From positions 1-45,469 of the forward strand of contig PFJX01000098.1 of assembly GCA_002784045.1 (NCBI GenBank): 45,469 nucleotides of DNA, in the 5' to 3' direction. Shown here piece by piece: positions 26,286 to 39,300 of the stretch. Both the position numbers and the translations under genes were made by a program. The number at the start of each line of letters is the position of its first letter. Within the stretch, counting starts at the first letter, position 1. The notes under the pieces were generated by a model, which made no database searches, was not told where the DNA came from, and worked only from the letters and a program-made list of their open reading frames with translations. This stretch comes from Hydrogenophilales bacterium CG_4_10_14_3_um_filter_63_21. GTDB taxonomy: Bacteria > Pseudomonadota > Gammaproteobacteria > Burkholderiales > Thiobacillaceae.

Positions 26286-27054
26286 CAGAAGCAGAAAAAC
26301 CTGGGCGCTGATCGCCTTGCTGGCCGCGTTCGCCTGCCGAGCCGATCCGGTCGAAGTCAGCTTGCATCTGCCTTCCGGCGCCGAGATCGTCAGCCAGCGC
26401 TACCCCGCCCGCGGCGAGTCCGGCAGGCTGCTAGCGCTCTGGCTGACCGATGGGCGCAGCGAGGATGAACAGAAGGCGGCAGCCGACATGGCGACACGCG
26501 GGGTGGAAACCTGGGTCACCGACTTCCTCGCGCCCTATTTCCTACCCGTGCTGTCCAGCAGTTGGAGCCAGATTCCCGAACAGGACCTACGCGAGTGGCT
26601 GGAAACCCTGCACACCCGGAACCCCGGCCAGCGCATCGTCCTCATCGCCAGTGGACGAGCCGCGACGCTGGCCTTGCGCGCGGCCAACGACTGGCAAGCG
26701 CGCCATGGCGAAGGCGCCGCCAATCGGCTGGCCGGCGCCTTGCTGATGTGGCCGCTGCTGTATCAGGAACTGGCGCCAGGGCAGGAACCGGACTATGACC
26801 CGATCGTGCGGCAAACCCATCTGAATCTGGTCATTCTGCAACCGAAATCGTCCGCCGGATTCTGGTGGCGCGAGCGTCTCAAAAACTTCCTTGAAGGCGC
26901 CGGCAGCCGGGTCTGGCTGAACGTGCTACCGGGCTTGCGCGACGGGTTTTATGGCCGTGGCGACATCACCCCGCGGGAAATCAGCGCCAGTGCCCGCCTC
27001 GGCGAAATGCTGCTGGATGGACTCAAACCTCTGCTCGACAAGGACAAACCATGA
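26275..27054 (+). CDS. Exported protein of unknown function, possible alpha/beta hydrolase fold
   Basis: The 259-residue protein has a signal peptide (SRKTWALIALLAAFA, cleavage probably after CRA; FAC is not a good lipobox). The body looks like an alternating alpha/beta protein: RLLALWLTDG, a helical stretch, RIVLIASGRAATLALRAA in the place where a nucleophile elbow would be (Gly-x-Ser-x-Gly is not seen; SGRA is), LNLVILQPKS, and WLNVLPGLRDGFYGRGD near the end. It may be a degenerate alpha/beta hydrolase. The ATG follows GAGGGAG. It overlaps the ROK kinase by 11 nt and tlpA by ATGA, so it is translated with both. Confidence 0.65.
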   Translation: MTSDRSRKTWALIALLAAFACRADPVEVSLHLPSGAEIVSQRYPARGESGRLLALWLTDGRSEDEQKAAADMATRGVETWVTDFLAPYFLPVLSSSWSQIPEQDLREWLETLHTRNPGQRIVLIASGRAATLALRAANDWQARHGEGAANRLAGALLMWPLLYQELAPGQEPDYDPIVRQTHLNLVILQPKSSAGFWWRERLKNFLEGAGSRVWLNVLPGLRDGFYGRGDITPREISASARLGEMLLDGLKPLLDKDKP

Positions 27055-27554
27055 AGTATTGGTACTTCCCCTTCATCCTGGCGCTAGCCGTCAACGCGGC
27101 GGCCGGCGATCTGAAAGTGCTACCGGCCAAGCCGGCGCCGGCACTGGCGCTGCCCACGCTGGATGGCGGCATGTCGCGGCTGGAGCGATTGCGCGGGCGC
27201 GTCGTGCTGGTCAACTTCTGGGCGGTGTGGTGCCCGCCCTGCCGCAAGGAAATGCCGTCGATGGCGCGGCTGGCGGAGAAGCTGGGCAGCCGCCCGTTCA
27301 CCATCCTGGGCGTCAATGTGGGCGAGAGCCCGGAGGAAATCCGCGCCTTCCTGAAACAGGTGCCGGTGAACTTCCCCATCCTGCTCGATGCCGAGGGCGA
27401 ACACCTCAAGCCCTGGCAGGTATTCGCCTTCCCCACCAGCTATGTGGTGGACAAGCAGGGCCGCCTACGCCTGGGTCTGTTCGGTTCGATCGAATGGGAC
27501 AATGCTGAAACCATCGCCAGAATCGAAGCGCTGCTGAACGAGGCCGACCACTAA
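27051..27554 (+). CDS. TlpA-type periplasmic thiol:disulfide oxidoreductase
   Basis: The 167-residue protein has a signal peptide (MKYWYFPFILALAVNAAAG) and a thioredoxin fold with the active site WCPPC at residues 60-64 (VLVNFWAVWCPPCRKEMP), ILGVNVGESPEEIRAFL, and the cis-proline loop in FAFPTSYVVDKQG. It belongs to the TlpA/ResA/CcmG group and probably reduces disulfides in the periplasm, for example for cytochrome c maturation or for the exported protein encoded just upstream. No ccm genes are near. The stop TAA is the left TAA flanking the hairpin element downstream. Confidence 0.92.
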   Translation: MKYWYFPFILALAVNAAAGDLKVLPAKPAPALALPTLDGGMSRLERLRGRVVLVNFWAVWCPPCRKEMPSMARLAEKLGSRPFTILGVNVGESPEEIRAFLKQVPVNFPILLDAEGEHLKPWQVFAFPTSYVVDKQGRLRLGLFGSIEWDNAETIARIEALLNEADH

Positions 27555-27713
27555 GGGATGAGGAAATGACTAATGTCCCGTTATTGGAGGTGCTGGCGGG
27601 ATGCAGTGCGAGGCGTTCTAAGCGCCGTGTGGCGAGCCACATAAACGAGGAACAACGACGCAATGCGCCTGTTAGTGCATCCACAAATGGGATATTGGTT
27701 GTTTCCTCATCCC
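27555..27713 (+). mobile_element. 159-bp MITE-like hairpin element with 12-bp terminal inverted repeats
   Basis: GGGATGAGGAAA (27555-27566) and TTTCCTCATCCC (27702-27713) are perfect inverted ends, flanked on each side by TAA (27552-27554 and 27714-27716), like a 3-bp target duplication; the left TAA is the tlpA stop codon. The two halves pair over their whole length. In the outer 46 positions I count 33 Watson-Crick pairs, 10 G.U pairs on + strand RNA and 3 mismatches. The tip is GTGTGGC (27627-27633) paired with GCCACAT. No protein is encoded. It could be a miniature inverted-repeat transposable element or a structured RNA in the tlpA 3' region; the wobble bias favours structure on the + strand. 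Confidence 0.6.
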
Positions 27714-27814
27714 TAACCAAGCGGTGAGGTGTGCCGAATAGGTTTTTGACAGCAGCCGGATATTGCACGGAACAGGCGGTTGAGTGGTGAGGGAGTGGGT
27801 CTGCTACCAACCTG

Positions 27815-35181: not shown

Positions 35182-36081
35182 ATGGCGGGCCTGCTCGTCG
35201 GCCGCCTGGGCCTGGCCGAGGCGCGCATTCCCCATGGGGATCGCCACGGCCTCATTTGGCTCTCCCGTGGCCGCCTGTTCGTCGAGGACGGCACCCTGCG
35301 TTTCATATGCACCGAATCGGCGGAACTCGAAGCCGGCGATTACGCCATCCCCTACCAGAACGTTTCCCTGATCCTGCTCGGCCCCGGTTCCACCGTCAGC
35401 CACGATGTCCTGCGCATCCTCGCCCGACACGGCACCCTGCTCGCCGCCGTGGGGGAGGGCGGCACCAAGTTCTACACCGCCCCGCCGATGGGCCAGGGCC
35501 ATAGCGAAGTGGCCCGCGCCCACGCCCGCCTGTGGGCGGACGAAAAAGTCCGGCTGGACACCGCGCGCCGGATGTATGCCTTCCGCTTCGGCACAATCCT
35601 GCCGCATCGGGACATCTCCGTGCTTCGGGGCATTGAAGGCGCCCGCATGAAGGAAACCTACCGCATCCAGGCCGACCGCTACCGCCTGCCCTGGGAAGGT
35701 CGCCGCTACGACCGTCACCAGCCGGAAGGCGCCGACATACCGAACCAGGCCATCAACCACGCCGCCACCTTCGTCGAATGCGCCGCCGACGTTGCCGTCG
35801 CCGCCGTGGGCGCGCTGCCGCCCCTGGGCTTCATCCATGAGGATTCGAGCAACGCCTTTACCCTGGACATCGCCGACCTTTACCGAGCTGAAGTCACCCT
35901 CCCGCTCGCTTTCCGGGTGGCGCGCCAAGCCTTGGACAATTCGGGTTTGAATCTGGAGCGGACGCTACGCCGGGAAGCGGCGATGGAATTCCGACGCGGC
36001 AAGCTCATCCCGAAAATGATCGACCGTATCAAGGAGTTGCTCGGTGTCCATGACGCTGGTGGTGACGCGCAACATCAGTAA
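35182..36081 (+). CDS. cas1: CRISPR integrase Cas1 (type I-E)
   Basis: The 299-residue metal-dependent integrase inserts new spacers at the leader end, in complex with Cas2. The active-site triad is present: Glu152 (GIEGARMKETY), His219 (FIHEDSSNAF) and Asp232 (DIADLYR). Each is offset by 11 from the E. coli residues Glu141, His208 and Asp221. Other landmarks are GPGSTVSHDVLRILARHG and the NQAINHAATF segment. The ATG at 35182 follows GAGGAG. The last 38 nt overlap cas2. Confidence 0.96.
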   Translation: MAGLLVGRLGLAEARIPHGDRHGLIWLSRGRLFVEDGTLRFICTESAELEAGDYAIPYQNVSLILLGPGSTVSHDVLRILARHGTLLAAVGEGGTKFYTAPPMGQGHSEVARAHARLWADEKVRLDTARRMYAFRFGTILPHRDISVLRGIEGARMKETYRIQADRYRLPWEGRRYDRHQPEGADIPNQAINHAATFVECAADVAVAAVGALPPLGFIHEDSSNAFTLDIADLYRAEVTLPLAFRVARQALDNSGLNLERTLRREAAMEFRRGKLIPKMIDRIKELLGVHDAGGDAQHQ

Positions 36082-36346
36082 CCGCGTGCGCGGCTTTCTC
36101 GCCTCGTCCCTGCTCGAACTGGCGCCAGGCGTGTACAGCGCGCCGCACATTTCCCCGGCGGTGCGGGAGCGCATCTGGGGGGTATTGGCGGATTGGTTCC
36201 TCCAGGAAAAGGACGCCTCGGTCGTGATGGTGTGGGCGGACAACGCCACGCCTTGTGGTCAATCCGTGCGCACCCTGGGCGTTCCGCCCATTGATGTCGT
36301 TTTGGTGGATGGCCTCCTGGCCACATTCCGCTCGCCAGCTCTTTAA
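36044..36346 (+). CDS. cas2: Cas2, type I-E (CasI-E ferredoxin-like)
   Basis: The 100-residue protein pairs with Cas1 in adaptation. Its start, SMTLVVTRNISNRVRG, lines up with the E. coli Cas2 N terminus SMLVVVTENVPPRLRG, which places the start at GTG 36044, 7 nt after AAGGAG; the ATG at 36050 would drop two conserved residues. APGVYSAPHISPAVRERIW and ASVVMVWADNATPCGQSVRTLG complete the I-E type of Cas2. The gene overlaps cas1 and ends only 34 bp before the first repeat. Confidence 0.95.
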   Translation: MSMTLVVTRNISNRVRGFLASSLLELAPGVYSAPHISPAVRERIWGVLADWFLQEKDASVVMVWADNATPCGQSVRTLGVPPIDVVLVDGLLATFRSPAL

Positions 36347-36380
36347 AAATACGAGATAGTTCAGGCGCTTACCTTCTAGA
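36347..36380 (+). promoter_or_regulatory. CRISPR leader (very short)
   Basis: Only 34 bp lie between the cas2 stop and repeat 1, mostly AT-rich (AAATACGAGATAG at its start). A 13-mer at 36359-36371 ending CTTA matches 6 of 9 fixed positions of the IHF consensus, which is weak. The functional leader may extend into cas2, or the array may be transcribed from the cas operon promoter. In other I-E systems integration uses an IHF-bent leader of 60 bp or more. Confidence 0.4.
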
Positions 36381-39300
36381 GCTTCCCCCGCCCACGCGGG
36401 GATCGACCAATCCTAGCCACTTTGGCTAACCCGGCGACAACGCTTCCCCCGCCCACGCGGGGATCGACCCCACTGGTGATGTCTATCTGCTCCAATCTAG
36501 AAGCTTCCCCCGCCCACGCGGGGATCGACCCCAAGAGGCTGGAAGGAGAGGCCGCATTAGAGCGCTTCCCCCGCCCACGCGGGGATCGACCCGCCCCGGC
36601 CCCGCCCGCACTCCGGCCCGCCGTGCTTCCCCCGCCCACGCGGGGATCGACCCCAGCCTGAAATCGTTGATAGAAAGCTCATGAAGCTTCCCCCGCCCAC
36701 GCGGGGATCGACCCTTTCGCGGCTTCCCATTCATCCCCGGCCCGGAGCTTCCCCCGCCCACGCGGGGATCGACCGGTCACTCGTGGCAATTTATGGATGG
36801 CACCGAGGCTTCCCCCGCCCACGCGGGGATCGACCCCTCAGGGAATGCTTTGCGTAACGCCTGCGCCTGCTTCCCCCGCCCACGCGGGGATCGACCCCTG
36901 TGACAGATCGAAAGCCTATCGAAAGCCTAGCTTCCCCCGCCCACGCGGGGATCGACCCGCATTGGGAAGTGATTACTTTTCATATGGTTAGCTTCCCCCG
37001 CCCACGCGGGGATCGACCTGAAGTTCATTATCCGCATCGCCGGCGGATTGTGCTTCCCCCGCCCACGCGGGGATCGACCTCAAGAGCGATCGCGTGCTGG
37101 CAATGATGTTGGGCTTCCCCCGCCCACGCGGGGATCGACCCTCATGGCAGGCTTCGATTGGATGGCACCTGACGCTTCCCCCGCCCACGCGGGGATCGAC
37201 CCTGGTCGGAGTTGTAGCAGGCGTGGTCGTGATCGCTTCCCCCGCCCACGCGGGGATCGACCCGCCAAGAGCTTATTGTCATCGCCCGCACTTGGGCTTC
37301 CCCCGCCCACGCGGGGATCGACCCAACGCTGCCGGACGTATGACGGTCATATTGATGCTTCCCCCGCCCACGCGGGGATCGACCCGGGGTTGATTCCTGG
37401 CGACCGGATCATCGAAAGCTTCCCCCGCCCACGCGGGGATCGACCTGGGTCTGCGTGCGCCCTCTTGACCGCCTCCCAGCTTCCCCCGCCCACGCGGGGA
37501 TCGACCGTGCGCCAGGATTGGATGCAAGGACGACTTGTGGCTTCCCCCGCCCACGCGGGGATCGACCCCTTATCGACTACGCGACTGTGGAACATATCAG
37601 GCTTCCCCCGCCCACGCGGGGATCGACCCTCTGGTTACTATCCAACACGAGTTCTTGAGCAGCTTCCCCCGCCCACGCGGGGATCGACCTCCTTCTTGGC
37701 CTTGGCTGCGCGGGAATCTTCTGCTTCCCCCGCCCACGCGGGGATCGACCTGGGTGGATATTCGTGAAATCTGTTCCTTTCGGGCTTCCCCCGCCCACGC
37801 GGGGATCGACCTGAAGTCGGCGACGGAAACGCCCGAGATTCTGCGCTTCCCCCGCCCACGCGGGGATCGACCCTCCGGGAATGTCCCCACCAGCAAAGGG
37901 CTTGGGCTTCCCCCGCCCACGCGGGGATCGACCGTTTTCGGGCCTGGAATCGACGACAGTCCAGAGGCTTCCCCCGCCCACGCGGGGATCGACCTCGAGC
38001 GCGACGAGGCGAAGATGAAGATGTTTGGCTTCCCCCGCCCACGCGGGGATCGACCCGAGGAAACCACAGCGGCCGGGATCGAGGCTCTGCTTCCCCCGCC
38101 CACGCGGGGACCGACCCGCACAAGTGCATCCCCACCCAATCTTGCCAGTGCTTCCCCCGCCCACGCGGGGATCGACCCGACGATGATATGGCCCACTGCG
38201 CGGCTCAACCGCTTCCCCCGCCCACGCGGGGATCGACCTGACCTTACCGCCATGGGGATGGGCACCGAGTCGCTTCCCCCGCCCACGCGGGGATCGACCC
38301 GCGGCCGTCTATCTGATCGTGGCAATGGTGACGCTTCCCCCGCCCACGCGGGGATCGACCAACGACAAGCCAGTATTCTTCGCCCGGCTGAATGCTTCCC
38401 CCGCCCACGCGGGGATCGACCCGTTTCGAGAGGGATACGGGTAGCGGTGACAATGCTTCCCCCGCCCACGCGGGGATCGACCCCTCGGACTCAAGCAGCG
38501 TGAACTCGCTGATGAGCTTCCCCCGCCCACGCGGGGATCGACCCGGGTATCCGGAACAGGGCTGATCCCTGGCGACGCTTCCCCCGCCCACGCGGGGATC
38601 GACCCATCGCCGGACTCCCATCGACTCAGACGTGGCTGCTTCCCCCGCCCACGCGGGGATCGACCCTCCACTATTGGAGCGCACTGAGATGGCCGAGCGC
38701 TTCCCCCGCCCACGCGGGGATCGACCATAAATAGCCGACCGCCAAAGCCACTTACCGCCGCTTCCCCCGCCCACGCGGGGATCGACCCTTTTTGGGCGGG
38801 TGATGGGCAGCGGGCCGACCGCTTCCCCCGCCCACGCGGGGATCGACCTATGTGTGCCGAGATGGCGCGCTTTCCCCCGCAGCTTCCCCCGCCCACGCGG
38901 GGATCGACCCTCGACTACCACCTACGCCACTCCTGCGCGCGGGCTTCCCCCGCCCACGCGGGGATCGACCCATCGTATGATCGCGGGTAGGGGACGTGCG
39001 CCCGCTTCCCCCGCCCACGCGGGGATCGACCTGCGGCGGAGTCGATGCCAGTAGCTCCGCCTGCGCTTCCCCCGCCCACGCGGGGATCGACCCTTGTCGT
39101 CGCCGAAGCGAGCCGGGTCCACTCCGCTTCCCCCGCCCACGCGGGGATCGACCCCCAGTGTCGCCCATTACCAGTTGGCCGGATACGCTTCCCCCGCCCA
39201 CGCGGGGATCGACCCGCCACACGCCAAGTCGCCTGTTCTGCGCAGCCGCTTCCCCCGCCCACGCGGGGATCGACCCTTCTTCGAGCGTGATCTTCTCGTA

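Follow-up and report, generated by a model that had tools for sequence, protein, structure and literature searches.

ERIC, Correia/NEMIS, YPAL and CIR sequences are short mobile or dispersed repeats whose transcripts are described as foldable (PMC2229807, PMC10969869, PMC2267715). In the account given in PMC2229807, the enterobacterial ERIC sequence (also IRU or RU-1) is a short palindrome with terminal repeats, a target duplication and a transcript that forms a long stem-loop, and transcripts next to it are reported to be affected. Correia/NEMIS elements of Neisseria are short MITEs, and the part of PMC10969869 that concerns them describes a Correia transcript that folds and, in some cases, is cut by RNase III. 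YPAL (RU-2) of Yersinia is given as 168 bp, with empty and filled sites, and may affect upstream transcripts (PMC2229807). CIR of Caulobacter is portrayed as two hairpin arms and a linker (PMC2229807). According to PMC2267715, either strand can usually fold, the exception being cases in which GU pairs are indispensable.

Here we describe a 159-nt element at positions 27555–27713 (+ strand) of the window, which is the whole 45,469-nt stretch of DNA analysed. The element resembles ERIC in its short palindrome, terminal repeats, target duplication and predicted long stem-loop transcript. It also resembles Correia/NEMIS as a short MITE with a predicted foldable transcript; however, the latter are described with 24-bp repeats and TA termini (PMC2229807). 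For YPAL, internal repeats and duplications of between 3 and 26 bp are given (PMC2229807), whereas the element family has exact ends and a 3-bp duplication. Two-hairpin relatives of the element share the arms and linker of CIR but, compared by description, not its GANTC motif (PMC2229807). The likeness to an RNA-hairpin MITE of the ERIC or Correia type lies in structure, and a hairpin RNA is predicted. Searching the open-licence literature, we recognised no paper on this element family, nor any on wobble with a strand bias in MITEs.

Results

The tlpA gene (27051–27554), which encodes AhpC-TSA/Redoxin domains, ends in a TAA stop codon at 27552–27554 (+ strand). The target duplication, of 3 bp, consists of this triplet on the left and a second TAA on the right, at 27714–27716 (+ strand). 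That the left boundary of the element coincides with the tlpA stop had been claimed in the first-pass annotation; we confirmed it, and it fits a preference for TNA targets. The element belongs to a subfamily with GGGATGMGGAAA ends, as judged from its fold, blastn and a covariance model. Its terminal inverted repeats are perfect over 12 bp (27555–27566 on the + strand and 27702–27713 on the − strand). Ungapped comparison of the outer 46 positions of the arms gave 33 Watson-Crick pairs, 10 + strand G.U pairs, no pair of the reverse type and three further mismatches. These counts, the perfect ends and the TAA flanks, all noted earlier, were exact on recount. By the same ungapped count, the element has the most arm matches of any 159-nt segment in the 45-kb stretch (33; the runner-up has 26). 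For this single copy, 10 of 10 G.U pairs pointing one way has a two-sided chance of about 0.002. The RNA fold of 27545–27725 has an energy of −95.5 kcal/mol (z −10.4) on the + strand and −65.9 kcal/mol (z −4.3) on the − strand. None of 200 shuffles matched the fold on either strand.

The listed cas3 open frame starts 172 nt beyond the element, which itself follows the tlpA stop without a gap. No T run follows the hairpin. Downstream, cas3 is accompanied by Cas_CT1975, Cas5, CRISPR_assoc and Cas1 domains; on our reading of the domain names, this is a type I-E CRISPR locus. A scan of 35500–38000 placed a CRISPR array behind the cas genes, from 36381, with a 61-nt period and 26 copies of the reference unit. 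Thirteen of the 22 other genomes of the genus have a tlpA-like locus, where likeness means protein identity only (58–84% to tlpA). In none of the 13 does the element lie directly behind the stop. An empty TAA site at the tlpA loci of relatives, looked for at the suggestion of the first-pass annotation, did not emerge: none of the 13 loci gave an alignable empty site for the tlpA copy itself. At L307, one weak covariance-model match lies away from the tlpA-like locus.

The search for further copies proposed earlier was productive. Using blastn with 23 genomes of the genus, our own included, we found 20 copies in four genomes, the tlpA copy counted. After joining of pieces, there was one copy in the own genome, six in G017 (7 rows), 12 in G014 (14 rows) and one in G011. 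An exact-pattern scan of GTDB contigs returned 14 stretches, 12 of them in two MAGs (apparently G014 and G017). The others were in a Burkholderiales MAG (L095, a full-length model match of 151 bits) and a Rhodoferax MAG (L092, a partial match of 54.8 bits). A covariance model built on 13 copies matched 27 of 61 genomes. A second model, built on 23 thinned copies, matched 71 of 250 genomes of the order, in 39 of 120 genera; both tallies include the own genome. For the second model, eight degenerate copies were excluded beforehand, filters were strict and at most 11 candidates were scored per genome. The union of both lists places at least 12 distinct superfamily sites in the own genome. Curated Rfam models had no match in the 45-kb window or in ten relatives' loci, nor in 27500–27760 at E up to 1, and five queries of a plasmid collection found no match.

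We assembled 97 near-full-length copies: the tlpA copy, 95 among the matches listed for the 13-copy model, and L095. We excluded fragments, nested copies, two-hairpin relatives and the longer-tipped variants of 213 nt. A tip variant with some 50 extra nt is shared between species (L161, L164 and L168, in G000:C32, G000:C144 and G019:C9). At L254 (G017:C61:41634-41953), two copies stand in tandem in the same direction, 2 nt apart.

The 3-bp flanks were equal in at least 48 of the 97 copies (TAA 22, TTA 19, TAT 2, TTT 2, ATA 1, TCA 1 and CAA 1), a lower bound since copies with less than 110 nt of flank were passed over. This TNA duplication differs from the TA termini given for ERIC in PMC2229807. 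Fourteen joined flank pairs, compared with 46 genomes, had uninterrupted matches at many sites. Four of six aligned sites were clean empty sites, with a single duplicated triplet (TTA or TAT) in at least one relative. The site of G000:C126, a copy of the own genome, is empty in G019 (95% identity), G006 and G005; that of G008:C99 in G009; that of G022:C6 in G008; and that of G006:C57 in G011. In this joined-flank alignment, G011:C300 and G034:C18 were not clean, nor were the junctions of L319, L320, L322 and L329. Equal flanks together with clean empty sites demonstrate insertion; mobility and target duplication are therefore observed properties of the family. Short (159 nt) and non-coding, the element has terminal inverted repeats, dispersed copies, a target duplication and empty sites in its family. 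Hence, we are nearly certain that it is a mobile element, a MITE; the earlier suggestion to this effect is borne out by the copies, the target duplications and the empty sites. Stop codons were flush with the element on the left, for sense genes, in 15 of 91 copies, and on the right, for antisense genes, in seven of 91. These counts cover copies with callable flanks (six of the 97 are too near contig ends) and use a home-made codon score, with no gene caller. The flush stops arise because the element targets TNA and duplicates it.

REP/REPIN sequences, moved by a RAYT (HUH) transposase, are not known to make a target duplication. Hence, the 3-bp duplications argue against membership of that group. 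There is some likeness, in that both form hairpins and inverted REP pairs resemble the two-hairpin relatives. Conversely, REPs are described as 20–40 bp and GTAG- or CGTC-tagged (PMC3733652), and the element family has long terminal repeats.

At 159 nt, the element is too short to contain a transposase. A MITE copy can do without an autonomous partner in its own genome. One end pattern, sought in 41 genomes, matched beyond the known copies but without a nearby second end. Other end patterns, in eight and seven genomes, revealed no autonomous partner. A 3-bp TNA duplication is a feature of IS5-type transposases of the IS1031 group. The duplication of the element fits that group, but no matching ends were found at 23 PF01609 loci in eight genomes. 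The same was true of 20 PF13546 matches. We rejected as the mover an IS701-type gene that lies next to a solitary element-like end in G000:C11; it apparently begins with a different, IS701-like end.

In ordinary MITEs, the ends are conserved and the interior is variable. Here, at least seven types of terminal repeat occur over the same core, including GGGATGMGGAAA, GGGAGTCGGAAA, GGNNCTGTYCATGRATAA, GGGCTCGTTAATGAATAA, GGRGCCGTAAATGAATAA, GGAGCCGAGAAATAATAA and GGAACGGGTACGAAATAA. The copies thus form a superfamily. The core hairpin common to elements with other termini is at 27585–27683 (+ strand; columns 31–131 of the 23-copy alignment A3). Mixed-end copies, with one end from each of two types, were found at G014:C81 and G014:C36. 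Hairpins of the ends alone, without a core, measure about 31 to 48 nt (31 nt at L217 and 48 nt at L074; also L221 and L223), and deletion derivatives such as L230 occur. Many genera also carry two-hairpin elements. In these, terminal repeats such as GAGCCTATTTCAGTAGGA enclose two cores, the second inverted relative to the first, which are joined by a linker like CCTTCGGGTTG. Such elements are at L014, L019, L020, L169-L171, L356-L359, L361, L362, L364, L370 and L373, in several genera of the order.

Pairing among homologues, on which the first-pass annotation had made its reading depend, is conserved. Across 23 thinned sequences, 93.2% of cells in the 36 core pairs are paired, compared with 24–47% in slid controls. 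The core covaries: both sides have changed in 13 of the 36 pairs, against 8.4 in shuffles (reached in one of 500). Counted by cells, there are 50 double-side changes against 13.0 (none of 500 shuffles as high). Further pair types in the core showed no excess: there were 41, compared with 38.4 in shuffles, and 74 of 500 shuffles reached 41. The tip hairpin (helix 3; 27627–27642, + strand) varies in sequence by subfamily but retains most pairs (87.8% of cells paired). Four internal-loop adenines are unpaired and invariant in all 23 sequences of alignment A3. They are A57 (27611), A89 (27643) and the adjacent A100 and A101 (27654–27655), all on the + strand, and suggest that something reads the structure. 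The consensus fold of 95 distinct copies has an energy of −46.0 on the + strand and −15.4 on the − strand, and each of the 97 copies folds better on the + strand.

We then compared the left 62 nt with the complement of the right 62 nt in all 97 copies, without folding. There were 4325 matches, 652 + strand G.U pairs against 204 of the reverse type, and 622 further mismatches. Strand-biased wobble is thus observed throughout the family: G.U on the + strand is in excess in 93 copies, four are ties and none is reversed. The tlpA copy is typical in this respect. The + strand of each copy was taken as the strand scored better by the covariance model, and the core's own asymmetric sequence agrees. 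Because copies share ancestry, neither the wobble nor the covariation counts are counts of independent events.

Private transitions at Watson-Crick pairs, i.e. states missing from the six nearest copies, were G.U in 87 cases and A.C in 47 (86:45 and 76:41 with other neighbour settings). The ratio was the same whichever pair was the origin (55:30 from G-C and 32:17 from A-U). One-strand C-to-T mutation predicts bias from G-C only, and the A-U-derived bias therefore argues against it. Private double changes retained a Watson-Crick pair in 23 cases and did not in nine. Template-switch repair between the arms could be a source of such changes; by itself, it would not make wobble one-sided. The bias also rises with frequency. 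Transition states (G.U:A.C) were 16:17 when seen in one copy, 19:16 in two to four, 19:5 in five to 14 and 13:0 in 15 or more (one-copy versus at least five-copy states, Fisher p 0.0008). The even one-copy states count against a reading by selection. Taken together, the private transitions, the frequency spectrum and the double changes form the pattern expected if copies bearing A.C spread less. Pairs for the private-change and frequency tests were taken from + strand folds, which may favour G.U; the unfolded 652:204 count avoids this.

An unrelated palindromic MITE (about 160 nt, ends GAGCCTGTCGGACTTTG) is nested at about the same place inside L032 and L038 (G017:C12 and G014:C70, two species), and apparently also in G000:C76 (L162). 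In G014:C70, CTAG stands at both its edges. Its arm counts in two copies, 4:3 and 2:3, are without bias. One of its strands likewise gives the better fold (−94.0 against −83.3 and −102.3 against −95.7), so a strand difference in energy alone proves little. Arm bias is also absent from the two-hairpin relatives (18:28 and 25:16 in 12 elements; the linker was not found in four of 16 loci tried), and in these relatives the strand of the core itself gives the better hairpin fold in nine and 10 of 12 cases. E. coli ERIC gave three loci at two distinct sites; one full-length arm count was 3:1, too few to read, and at the other site a 32-nt piece aligned.

The relation of bias to host genes was measured from private changes. 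The G.U:A.C ratio was 39:21 in copies sense to both neighbours and 21:6 in copies antisense to both (p 0.32). Host read-through would be expected to make the bias stronger in sense copies, and the similar bias in both orientations argues against it. Among co-directional neighbours, orientation leaned towards sense (45:24, p 0.015; 22:10, p 0.05, with the strictest gene score).

Discussion

We propose that the element is a non-autonomous, end-to-end palindrome that inserts mostly into TNA, duplicates it and would, as a result, often land flush behind TAA stops. A DDE transposase may move it. Across the superfamily, the core hairpin of about 100 nt is retained while terminal repeats differ between subfamilies. 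In the 159-nt class, changes that give G.U on the + strand could become common and A.C changes could not, leaving the + strand foldable. Selection would act through the success of the propagating lineage. The working we judge most likely is like that of ERIC and Correia elements: an RNA hairpin would make insertions behind genes tolerable. Wobble pairs would be favoured because they preserve the hairpin in RNA but spoil the perfect palindrome in DNA. Palindromic DNA is unstable, and imperfection should help the element to escape hairpin cleavage. On balance, we lean towards this explanation as a whole, that of a palindromic TNA-inserting MITE with a constant core, changing ends and a + strand kept foldable. 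Selection for a folded + strand is its firmer part and is probable. That selection acts on an RNA and not on single-stranded DNA we rate at about even chances. The choice of RNA is favoured because G.U keeps the RNA hairpin.

The same MITE could instead be selected as + strand single-stranded DNA, whose folding would take place in transposition or on the lagging strand, by the logic of REP/REPIN or integron attC sites. DNA hairpins tolerate G.T better than A.C. The independence of bias from host transcription direction, the conserved unpaired adenines of the core and the existence of short hairpins made of terminal repeats alone would all suit such a molecule. Conversely, the variable 3-bp duplication (TAA, TTA, TAT and others) is the trace of a staggered double-strand insertion, and the 45:24 lean towards sense is a mild hint for RNA. 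We regard single-stranded DNA as a rather unlikely alternative.

Selection might also be dispensed with. Strand-asymmetric mutation (on the + strand, C to T and also A to G) could yield every + strand G.U by one-strand transitions, turning a perfect palindrome into a wobble-biased one, and young private changes are indeed biased already (87:47). However, under C to T alone A-U pairs should give rise to no bias, yet we found 32:17, and mutation does not account for a bias that climbs with frequency or for pair-restoring double changes (23 private; 13 of 36 core pairs). Nor does the bias track transcription direction, and the two copies of an unrelated palindromic MITE of the same genus lack it. 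Mutation alone is thus improbable; selection on a folded + strand accounts better than asymmetric decay for a bias that comes from G-C and A-U alike and grows with frequency. The first-pass annotation had left these two readings side by side. The frequency pattern, the covariation and the A-U origin come down for the folded + strand, but the bias is family-wide and not specific to this locus.

A + strand transcript at tlpA, proposed earlier as the thing under selection, is not supported, nor is a role in tlpA mRNA or its read-through transcript, because the bias ignores the direction of neighbouring genes and the two-hairpin relatives are unbiased. That the hairpin works in tlpA mRNA (by protecting the 3′ end, as an RNase III site or as a terminator) and insulates the downstream cas3 gene and CRISPR operon would suit its place, flush behind the tlpA stop and 172 nt ahead of cas3, and the action of ERIC and Correia elements in mRNAs described in PMC10969869, but is very improbable given its absence behind the stop at 13 of 13 tlpA-like loci, a family-wide bias unconnected with host direction and the lack of a T run.

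One speculative and, we think, unlikely reading is that the element is modular and reverses the layout of ordinary MITEs. A strand-specific folded core with invariant unpaired adenines would be held constant while termini are swapped repeatedly, and core RNA or single-stranded DNA would be the functional unit, riding different transposases and perhaps recruiting them. A constant core with changing termini raises a testable question: how MITEs switch transposase. A palindrome folds on either strand, which makes it hard to tell whether foldability in a bacterial MITE is under selection or simply a consequence of its terminal repeats. A family whose departures from palindromy run mostly one way separates the two cases, and provides a signal by which strand-specific selection on a transposable element can be measured.
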